Shown here: piece by piece, positions 537 through 4,025 of the stretch
How the letters are laid out: each line of letters opens with the position of its first letter
Position numbering within the stretch: the first letter of the stretch is position 1
Source of the DNA: a virus
Virus record (IMG/VR): IMGVR_UViG_3300042516_003738
Coordinates: 1 to 21,537 of that record
Strand: one strand, 5' to 3'
DNA length: 21,537 nt
Notes under the pieces: model-generated
Told to the model about the DNA's origin: nothing
Database searches by the model: none
Seen by the model: the letters and a program-made list of their open reading frames with translations, nothing else
Program-made: the position numbers and the translations under genes

Positions 537-793
537 TTAAAACATTACTATTGGCTATTGTACTTAATGCTTCTGAATTGTCTTATTCAGAATTGGAAAA
601 ATATTATTGGGATTGTGATACATCCTTTATGAAAGGTGAACTGGGCGGGCAAGACACATGGAGTTGTCTATCTATAACGGAAGAATTTCAAAAACATTTT
701 GCCAGTCGTGAAGATTTTATGATATACTGGCACGAACATAGAATGAAGCAATGGACGGATCGTGGTTATTATCCACCTCCGGATTTTGTATAG
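533..793 (+). CDS. Small hypothetical protein (86 aa)
   Basis: An 86-residue protein whose ATG overlaps the preceding stop (ATGA). A hydrophobic N-terminus (MIKTLLLAIVLNAS) looks like a short signal sequence or membrane anchor. It is followed by an acidic, aromatic-rich body: YYWDCDTSFMKGELGGQD, SCLSITEEFQ and FMIYWHEHRM. Two cysteines (28 and 45) could pair if the protein is exported. From memory, proteins with a 'WDCDTxFMKGEL...SCLSITE' core recur as unknowns in tailed phages. No enzymatic motif is visible. The stop codon lies only a few bases before the start of the tmRNA acceptor piece, so the three small genes and the tmRNA may share a transcript. Confidence 0.7.
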   Translation: MIKTLLLAIVLNASELSYSELEKYYWDCDTSFMKGELGGQDTWSCLSITEEFQKHFASREDFMIYWHEHRMKQWTDRGYYPPPDFV

Positions 794-799
794 AATTGT

Positions 800-1140
800 T
801 GTAATCCCTTCAAAGTGAAGGCATTCTGGACGTGGGTTCGACTCCCACCTGGTCCACCAAAAACGAGATGACTCTGGATACTGTGGTCGACATACGGTAC
901 CTGAACATTAGGATAATAGGTAGTCCTAGTCCGTTTTTGAGGGGCCAGACCTGGTTTCGACAGGGTGAGATAGTGGAGAAGGCAACACGGTAGGCGATGA
1001 CCGTAAATCAAGCAAATAAAGTAACCGCAAATGACAGCGAGTACGCTCTAGCAGCTTAAGCTCTAGATGAGGTTTCGCAAGGTGTGCCTTATAACCAAAA
1101 CACCTTGCACCGATTCATTAGAGATATTTAATGAATATCA
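800..1140 (+). ncRNA. ssrA: Circularly permuted (two-piece) tmRNA
   Basis: The 3' acceptor half lies upstream of the 5' coding half, as in permuted tmRNAs of alphaproteobacteria, some betaproteobacteria and cyanobacteria. Acceptor piece: T-arm GTGGG-TTCGACT-CCCAC (832-848), acceptor strand CTGGTCC (849-855), then ACCA with encoded CCA at 857-859. Coding piece: GGGCCAG (942-948) pairs with 849-855 at all seven positions (one G-U), followed by CCTGGTTTCGAC, the tmRNA D-loop-like motif. AGGGTG (962-967) pairs with CATTCT (822-827) as the inter-piece P2 helix. The resume codon GCA is at 1027 and the tag reads ANDSEYALAA with TAA at 1057-1059, close to the E. coli tag ANDENYALAA. Downstream stems GCAAGGTGT/ACACCTTGC (1077-1108) and ATTCATTA/TAATGAAT (1113-1136) fit later tmRNA domains. 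Outer ends are estimates. Role: ribosome rescue and protein tagging by trans-translation. Confidence 0.9.
860..941 (+). other. Intervening segment removed between the two tmRNA pieces
   Basis: In permuted tmRNA genes the RNA between the CCA end and the 5' piece is processed out. Here the segment would begin and end with complementary strands: AAAAACG (859-865, overlapping the CCA end) can pair with CGTTTTT (932-938), stacking near the acceptor stem and presenting the precursor as one closed structure for end processing. A smaller hairpin TAGGA/TCCTA lies inside. No protein gene is visible. Confidence 0.65.
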
Positions 1141-1176
1141 GTAGTAATTTATTATAGTTATTATGATACATAAAAA

Positions 1177-1201
1177 GACAATGTTTTATTGTCATTATTT
1201 T
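1177..1201 (+). terminator. Weak hairpin with T-rich tail between tmRNA and pqqA
   Basis: GACAAT-GTTTT-ATTGTC (1177-1193) is a perfect six-pair hairpin followed by ATTATTTT. The stem is AT-rich, so this may be a weak or partial terminator, or a processing or stability element, between the tmRNA and the pqqA ribosome binding site. Confidence 0.4.
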
Positions 1202-1213
1202 GAGGAGAAAAAC

Positions 1214-1285
1214 ATGTGGACTAAACCTACTGCACAAGATATGCGTTTCGGTTTCGAAATCACGATGTACATTGCAAATCGCTAA
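1214..1285 (+). CDS. pqqA: PqqA-like PQQ precursor peptide
   Basis: A 23-residue peptide beginning MWTKP and continuing R-F-G-F-E-I-T-M-Y to IANR. PqqA is the ribosomal precursor of pyrroloquinoline quinone: PqqE (radical SAM, with PqqD) cross-links a glutamate and a tyrosine spaced E-x-x-x-Y, after which peptide is trimmed away and the cofactor completed by other Pqq enzymes. Here Glu15 and Tyr19 have exactly that spacing, and the length, the N-terminal W-x-K-P and the G-x-E-[VI]-T-x-Y core match bacterial PqqA. The start has a strong ribosome binding site (GAGGAG, 1202-1207; AGGAG ends 6 bases before the ATG). No other pqq gene is in the window, so host PqqBCDE would have to act on it. It follows the tmRNA directly. 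Very short, but the motif match makes chance unlikely. Confidence 0.85.
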
Positions 1286-1411
1286 ATAAAGCAGTGGGTT
1301 TGGTGGCATCACCCGGCCTTAGTGTCAAAAAACCACCACTTTAAGTTTTAAAAACACTAAATAAAAGTATCGGTTCGCCGATATACACACAACACACAAT
1401 AGGAGAAGTAA
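1286..1411 (+). other. Non-coding, structured region between pqqA and the next gene
   Basis: No convincing gene. AGTGGGTTT (1293-1301) can pair with AAACCACCACT (1330-1340) with a two-base bulge, enclosing a small hairpin GGTG-GCAT-CACC (1302-1313). This could end or stabilise the pqqA message, although no clean U-tract follows. CTAAATAA occurs twice (1282-1289 and 1358-1365) and resembles a T4-like late promoter. TATCGG-TTCG-CCGATA (1368-1383) forms a six-pair hairpin in the leader of the next gene. A ribosome binding site TAGGAG precedes the ATG at 1412. Confidence 0.5.
1358..1365 (+). promoter_or_regulatory. Possible T4-like late promoter
   Basis: CTAAATAA resembles the T4 late promoter box TATAAATA and its relatives in marine T4-like phages. 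Transcription from it would begin near 1371, leaving a leader of about 40 bases for the gene at 1412. The same octamer occurs at 1282-1289 and 5823-5830. Motif match only. Confidence 0.35.
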
Positions 1412-1684
1412 ATGAGTAATCTTACACCATTCGAGATTCGTCTTGAACTTTTAAAAATGGCGAAAGAACTTTTGTTAGAAGAATATCATTCTAACAAAGA
1501 TCGCCTTCAACAAGAGTGGCATGTAAAGGTTGAAACGTCTAAATTAAACGGACAACCAATACCAGATCATCCACCATATCCAACATATCCCACAGAAAAC
1601 GATATCATCACAAAGGCAATGTCTTTGAACGGGTTCGTTTCTAATATCACAGCAGAAAAGACACAGAGCAAAAAGTCTGCCTGA
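1412..1684 (+). CDS. Conserved small phage protein (90 aa), function unknown
   Basis: A 90-residue soluble protein. The N-terminal half (TPFEIRLELLKMAKELLLEE) is predicted helical, followed by a charged stretch and a proline/tyrosine-rich segment (PDHPPYPTYPTENDI) leading to a final helix (AMSLNGFVSN). This layout is typical of a small unknown family in marine T4-like phages that I recognise by pattern only; no function is assigned. No cysteines, no signal peptide, no membrane segment. TAGGAG just upstream is a strong ribosome binding site and decides the ATG. The leader carries a small hairpin, and a stable UUCG hairpin follows the stop. Confidence 0.8.
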   Translation: MSNLTPFEIRLELLKMAKELLLEEYHSNKDRLQQEWHVKVETSKLNGQPIPDHPPYPTYPTENDIITKAMSLNGFVSNITAEKTQSKKSA

Positions 1685-3215: not shown

Positions 3216-3429
3216 AGATGAAATGTTAAAGTTTGCCAAATCCATAGAATCTATGGTTGCAAACACAGATTACAATTACATTGAAGCTATTGTTGAACAT
3301 TGTAAACAAACTGGTCTAGAAATAGAAGTTGCAGCTTCTCTCATCAATCAAAATCTGAAAGCGAAGATTGAAAATGAAGCGATGAATAACAATTTACTCA
3401 AAGTGAAAACCAATCAATTACCTATATGA
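3205..3429 (+). CDS. 33: Late transcription coactivator, gp33-like
   Basis: A 74-residue protein. The block YIEAIVEHCKQTGLEIEVAA with the following SLINQNLKAKI matches the phage late-transcription coactivator family (gp33-like) found in T4-like phages of aquatic bacteria. In T4, gp33 binds the RNA polymerase beta-flap and, with the gp55 sigma factor and the gp45 sliding clamp, turns on late genes. It is shorter than T4 gp33 (112 residues), as usual outside the T4 group. The start overlaps the previous gene by 11 bases and no strong ribosome binding site is seen, which suggests coupled translation. The place between dsbA and 59 is that of T4. The TATAAATA-like boxes in this window would be the expected targets of the complex. 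Confidence 0.75.
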   Translation: MPTKDEMLKFAKSIESMVANTDYNYIEAIVEHCKQTGLEIEVAASLINQNLKAKIENEAMNNNLLKVKTNQLPI

Positions 3430-4025
3430 TTACTGGTTATGAGGCCTTTGGAATATATAATGCACTCAAACTACATTTTACACAAGAATCGTATGATTAC
3501 TTTAAGTACAATGGTAAAACCAATATTAGTTTGAGTTCGTTTGAAAATCGTAAAGATAAATGGCATTTCACAAAATTATCAAAGAAATTTAATGATAAGG
3601 AAGAGTTGATTTTTTTCATTGTATCTAATCTTTTACAGAATGATAAATTTTGGATAGGAGATTTACTGGCAGAAGATTCAGACGTTAGATATTTGAGTCG
3701 AAAAAAAGTTTTACAGTCATTATCTTATTTTTTCGAAAATGATTGTAAAAAGATTTTTGAAGGCATTACAAATCCAAATGAATTGATTTTAGTAACTAGT
3801 GGAGATCATCCTAAATTACTGAAGTCTTTTATGAGAAAAGAAATTGAAATAGAAACTCTCTGTTTGTTAGACTCTATTTTAAATTTCGTTCCTATGTGGA
3901 AACAGAAAATAAAAGACGATATAGTATGGCCAAATCATAGGTTGAAAATCGTAAAGTATAGAGATTTTTTACCGAAAGACAAGACCAAATTTAAAGTAAT
4001 TTTAAGGAAGATCATAAATGCATAG
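3426..4025 (+). CDS. 59: Loader of replicative helicase, gp59-like
   Basis: A 199-residue protein (T4 gp59 has 217). The N-terminal motif ITGYEAFGIYNALKLHF, then YDYFKYNGKTN, is characteristic of gp59, and a basic C-terminus follows. In T4, gp59 binds forked DNA and gp32 and loads the gp41 hexameric helicase on the lagging-strand template, linking recombination intermediates to replication. The start overlaps the gp33 stop by ATGA. In T4 the next gene is 32; here four genes are inserted before gp32. The last 8 bases overlap the D-Ala-D-Ala peptidase gene. Confidence 0.88.
   Translation: MITGYEAFGIYNALKLHFTQESYDYFKYNGKTNISLSSFENRKDKWHFTKLSKKFNDKEELIFFIVSNLLQNDKFWIGDLLAEDSDVRYLSRKKVLQSLSYFFENDCKKIFEGITNPNELILVTSGDHPKLLKSFMRKEIEIETLCLLDSILNFVPMWKQKIKDDIVWPNHRLKIVKYRDFLPKDKTKFKVILRKIINA

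Follow-up and report, generated by a model that had tools for sequence, protein, structure and literature searches.

The window, the whole 21.5-kb stretch of DNA analyzed here, is an entire virus record. It contains a genuine pqqA gene that starts with the ATG at 1214 and terminates with the TAA at 1283-1285 (Table 1). The initial annotation had called this ORF pqqA-like from its letters, and profile searches established the identity. The TIGR02107 equivalog model scored the peptide at 39.5 bits against a cut-off of 20 (E = 3.3e-10), and Pfam PqqA (PF08042) scored it at 39.4 bits against a cut-off of 21.1 (E = 5.6e-10). Because both scores exceed the curated cut-offs, a chance likeness to PqqA is excluded. 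The W-x-K-P start described in that annotation is Trp2-Thr3-Lys4-Pro5, and Glu15 and Tyr19, the residues that become PQQ, have the E-x-x-x-Y spacing claimed for them. The ribosome-binding site, which had been called strong, is a GAGGAG hexamer six bases 5' of the ATG. An alternative in-frame ATG lies upstream at 1163, but a relative (L293) has an in-frame TAA just before the pqqA ATG, so it is the short start that is conserved. A sigma-70 promoter scan returned nothing above chance.

Table 1. Features of the pqqA locus in window coordinates
Feature	Position	Strand	Evidence or remark
Permuted tmRNA, tag ANDSEYALAA, directly 5' of pqqA	767..1150	+	ARAGORN; Rfam RF01850 (147.3 bits), RF04321 (145.4 bits)
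Hairpin GACAAT-gtttt-ATTGTC, between tmRNA and ribosome-binding site	1177..1193	+	Sequence comparison; function putative
Ribosome-binding site GAGGAG	1202..1207	+	6 nt before ATG; AGGAG at the same place in relatives
pqqA CDS, 23 aa	1214..1285	+	TIGR02107 and PF08042 profiles; same locus in 6/6 informative relatives
Conserved RNA element GTGGGTTTGGTGGCATCACCCGG...AAACCACCAC, just 3' of the pqqA stop	1294..1339	+	Alignments, consensus fold
UUCG-loop hairpin, before the ribosome-binding site of the next gene	1368..1383	+	Fold; paired in relatives, different stem in L295
Next gene downstream, 90 aa, starts MSNLTPFEIRLELL...	1412..1684	+	ORF; start conserved in relatives
T4 gp59-like helicase loader, synteny anchor	3426..4025	+	PF08993, PF08994

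PHROGs and Pfam searches of the window ORFs identified the gp59 helicase loader, gp32, a DNA end protector, and head closure, tail tube, baseplate hub and baseplate wedge proteins. The contig is a fragment of a T4-like phage, and its source is a T4-like virus of water bacteria. The gp59, gp32 and structural genes, together with the presence of pqqA in complete cultured phage genomes, uphold the earlier statement that the gene sits in a phage. The window gp32 is nearest to proteins of T4-like cyanophages and pelagiphages at only about 53-61% identity, so the phage group is itself uncultured. No pqqB-E was found among the window ORFs tested with PHROGs and Pfam, and the 90-residue ORF downstream of pqqA had no Pfam match. 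A cell-wall hydrolase (PF07486; 1731-2291) and a D-alanyl-D-alanine carboxypeptidase (PF00768; 4018-4914) are encoded near the locus.

The pqqA gene is surrounded by RNA features. In most relatives the gap between the tmRNA and the ribosome-binding site also contains a hairpin at this position, though its sequence differs. The element that follows the stop codon was found in 18 IMG/VR contigs, where it comes behind pqqA or else adjoins the tmRNA end. A nested or three-way structure is predicted for it by the consensus fold, and the element is almost invariant in sequence, so covariation says little about this fold. Rfam matched no family to the element and no known riboswitch to the pqqA region, whereas a glutamine riboswitch is reported in the methylophage Melnitz (PMC9004378). 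tmRNAs with varied tags are common upstream of gp59 across this phage group.

Synteny was examined by anchoring on gp59, which is independent of pqqA. Contigs were informative if their gp59 was 74-97% identical and preceded by more than 2.2 kb of sequence (L290, L292-L296); L288, L289 and L291 end too early to show the whole gene, L288 beginning inside the pqqA ORF. The claimed conservation at the same locus was found in all of the informative contigs, with pqqA approximately 2.2 kb upstream of gp59 in 6/6. Five of the six encode the window peptide letter for letter with silent DNA changes, L295 being the exception. Among relatives with 47-63% gp59 identity, L302, L304 and L324 have pqqA (directly at the tmRNA end in L302 and L324), and most others with a visible tmRNA do not. 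In L354, L512, L513 and L515, the tmRNA is joined directly to the element found behind the pqqA stop in the window. Because these distant relatives show the tmRNA without pqqA and joined to the element, pqqA is an accessory gene that was gained or lost between the two. It is not essential, since more distant relatives lack it.

Because the ORF is flanked by a tmRNA and a conserved structured RNA element, it could be read as a leader peptide, or as non-coding sequence within the tmRNA-element RNA, with a coincidental likeness to PqqA. However, the tmRNA and element occur without the ORF, other phages have the ORF without either of them, and the profile scores lie far over the curated cut-offs. 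Together with the conservation, these data refute this explanation for practical purposes, and we give it a vanishingly small probability.

The window peptide was compared by tblastn with 50,697 phage records. Matches were confined to methylophages, the spring-water podovirus ctXG6705 and two records that resemble bacterial contamination. Nine cultured methylophage genomes carry pqqA (four strains of Melnitz, Venkman, MEP301, MEP401, MEP402 and P19250A), and these differ in genome size and in the genes around pqqA. HIM624-A, phiMB624-A and MEP431-434, also phages of Methylophilales, either had no match or were absent from the collection searched, so carriage by all methylophages cannot be claimed. 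In the two excluded matches, both named Acinetobacter phage MD-2021a, pqqA is accompanied by pqqB, pqqC, pqqD and a radical-SAM gene, and both resemble pieces of bacterial chromosome deposited under a phage name. They are records L008 and L009 (CAKLQF020000010.1 and CAKLQH020000055.1), one of which also contains ppk. The expectation that annotation overlooks a gene this short was correct for the cultured methylophages, none of whose deposits labels PqqA. The deposits of Venkman, MEP301, MEP401, MEP402 and P19250A have no annotated feature at pqqA. In Melnitz and ctXG6705, a hypothetical ORF was deposited over pqqA on the opposite strand (L002 3961-4056 in Melnitz; L007 2067-2195), and this wrong-strand call hid the real gene. 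Surveys of viral metabolic genes miss peptides as short as PqqA.

IMG/VR was scanned with a degenerate DNA pattern for seven residues (residues 13-19), which returned at least 120 stretches with pqqA. In all of the matches listed, W-x-x-P precedes the pattern in frame, and the stop codon falls 23-25 codons after the start. All searches pooled gave at least 66 distinct peptides in at least 157 viral loci, a count that includes the same contig twice in places and the two contaminant records. Three of the peptides collected match, letter for letter, bacterial peptides recovered in this analysis; the window peptide does not. In an IMG/VR virus of 72 kb (G022), approximately 6 kb separate pqqA from the gene for a PQQ-dependent methanol dehydrogenase, and a formate-dehydrogenase-like gene lies nearby. 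Along with pqqA and the PQQ methanol dehydrogenase, this virus (L516 7990-12784 and 15891-15959; the record behind L062) encodes a 946-residue molybdopterin formate-dehydrogenase-like protein, CsgG and ClpS.

Glu15, Tyr19, Trp2, Pro5, Arg11 and Gly13 are invariant among the matches listed, which comprise 125 distinct viral coding sequences; residues 13-19 were built into the search pattern, and Trp2, Pro5 and Arg11 lie outside it. Conservation of E-x-x-x-Y in phage homologues was confirmed, with Glu15 and Tyr19 kept in all viral copies found. The mean pN/pS among the same 125 coding sequences is 0.24. The window peptide is encoded by six different DNA sequences that differ by 1-10 bases per pair, and every difference is silent. 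The silent-only changes and the pN/pS value indicate, from sequence comparison, that viral pqqA is kept by selection.

This constraint bears on whether pqqA is neutral cargo, carried by chance and without benefit. The gene abuts a tmRNA in the window clade, L064, L094, L302 and L324, and it adjoins tRNA genes in Melnitz, L013, L050 and L066. Such surroundings are a known kind of insertion spot, and the direct tmRNA-element junction in relatives lacking pqqA would fit chance carriage. A gene of this kind would not be expected to show the strong protein-level constraint seen in the silent differences among the window-peptide copies and in the invariant residues of the 125 coding sequences. Purifying selection is also seen across deep divergence, and pqqA recurs in different methylophages amid different genes. 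Neutral carriage is therefore very unlikely. In L013, L050 and L066, pqqA lies approximately 80 bases from the end of tRNA arrays of roughly a dozen to 28 genes.

The source of the remaining PQQ enzymes was addressed by searching for the PqqE family, for which only matches above cut-off were counted since the family gives weak radical-SAM matches in control genomes too. None of 46 viral records exceeded the cut-off, against three of four candidate host genomes, so the host must provide the enzymes. PQQ dehydrogenases are also present in the candidate hosts. Among the Methylophilaceae, 149 of 150 genomes have pqqA, usually in several copies and with up to 12, and one methylotroph has five copies of which three are lone (PMC9851590). 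Because of these multiple and lone copies, an extra free-standing pqqA is normal biology. Added PqqA peptide gave PQQ in cell-free extract at 70-80%, as cited in PMC9851590. PqqA is not always the sole limit, because in Acetobacter more pqqAB yielded 29% more PQQ versus an eightfold gain with the whole cluster (PMC7936290).

The gene is a genuine phage-borne pqqA, and we consider it quite probable that through it the phage supplies only the consumed part of the PQQ pathway. The phage would make the 23-residue precursor, host PqqD and PqqE would bind this peptide and join its Glu15 and Tyr19 by a cross-link, and the remaining host Pqq enzymes would complete PQQ. PqqA is the only pathway member used one-for-one per PQQ, whereas each enzyme can be used again. 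If a phage turned off or outcompeted host expression, the peptide gene would be all that it had to carry to keep the host's PQQ-dependent dehydrogenases for alcohol or methanol charged, because PqqA is consumed stoichiometrically and the host enzymes are reusable and stable. We infer this supply role, and with it that the gene is expressed in infected cells, that host enzymes process the peptide and that the phage benefits, from the stoichiometry, the strict conservation of the reacting residues and the pairing with a PQQ dehydrogenase in some viruses. The original proposal that phage copies raise PQQ supply during infection is retained as a probable reading: the gene is real, and it would raise the supply.

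The same peptide could instead act as a decoy or brake that occupies PqqD/PqqE, lowers host PQQ synthesis and redirects host metabolism. Binding of the viral peptides to PqqD would be expected, because they retain the N-terminal W-x-[KTS]-P and the core. The reacting Glu15 and Tyr19 and a normal C-terminus would be superfluous in a decoy, yet every viral copy keeps them, and several of the viral peptides match host peptides exactly. The combination of pqqA with a PQQ dehydrogenase in some viruses (G022; PMC7678222) fits supply rather than inhibition, which leaves the decoy very unlikely.

The window peptide shares 19 of 22 residues, including an identical second half, with PqqA from several Burkholderiales, Rhodoferax and Thauera, and it differs from the Methylophilaceae PqqA types. 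Among the genomes tested, the best match to the window tmRNA was in Thauera (171 bits), and the Methylophilaceae tested reached at most 41 bits. Host assignment by tmRNA similarity was rejected, as only short matches were found in Methylophilaceae and Thauera. These comparisons point to a betaproteobacterium as the likely host of the window phage, although in the Burkholderiales family tested only 57 of the 251 genomes sampled have pqqA. The PQQ may serve a purpose other than methanol oxidation. The affinities of the peptide and of the betaproteobacterial permuted tmRNA would fit a freshwater host from the Burkholderiales or Rhodocyclales that is not a methylotroph, in which the cofactor could serve, for example, dehydrogenases for sugars or alcohols. 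However, 23-residue peptides and tmRNAs are weak host markers, and the Melnitz tmRNA does not match its own host either (PMC9004378). This variant of the supply role is tentative, somewhat less probable than not but a serious contender.

Beyond the window, we lean toward the view that different phage lineages of PQQ-dependent methanol or alcohol oxidizers each bring just the precursor PqqA. It would be a standard overlooked gene, acquired repeatedly and often beside tRNA or tmRNA genes, and PQQ supply would be a common infection bottleneck. If so, viral control over the oxidation of methanol and alcohols in lakes and coastal seas is exerted by providing the precursor of a cofactor instead of an enzyme, and the gene that does this is about as small as a metabolic gene can be. 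The idea is directly testable because the pqqA-bearing cultured phages (Venkman, Melnitz, MEP301, MEP401/402 and P19250A) have cultured hosts.

The description of the gene as possibly new does not hold. Phage PqqA was reported together with methanol dehydrogenase in a T4-like Methylophilaceae virus of Lake Baikal in 2020 (PMC7678222), and pqqA is among the virus-encoded genes listed in a 2026 reservoir study (PMC13188868). The kind is already known, and the window pqqA adds a new member from another phage group. The Baikal virus VP_266 resembles the window phage in being T4-like, carrying PqqA and having the same proposed role in PQQ supply (PMC7678222). Its population has a methanol dehydrogenase, whereas the 21.5-kb window fragment shows none and its pqqA adjoins a tmRNA. 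The cultured methylophages (Melnitz, Venkman, MEP301, MEP401/402 and P19250A) also carry pqqA, but their peptides differ from that of the window at 5-8 of 22-23 positions and the genome location differs. The Melnitz paper names PQQ only as a medium ingredient and does not mention pqqA (PMC9004378), and the MEP401/402 and Venkman papers mention neither PqqA nor PQQ. No earlier report of the spread of pqqA across cultured methylophages was found in the open-access literature searched, where its breadth seems to be unreported.

The window peptide shares with the bacterial PqqA family (TIGR02107/PF08042) its length, the W-x-K-P start, the R-x-G-F-E-x-T-x-Y core and the reacting Glu15 and Tyr19; the window copy differs in being phage-borne and without pqqB-E alongside. 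The PQQ operon (pqqABCDE) links pqqB-E in cis, unlike the window, which resembles the lone pqqA of methylotroph hosts (PMC9851590). The phage would supply one consumed component and the host the rest, an arrangement that may be likened to that of psbA in cyanophages. Cyanophages bring psbA for the fastest-turning-over photosystem protein. That gene is unrelated in sequence and encodes an enzyme subunit, whereas phage pqqA encodes a substrate peptide for a cofactor.
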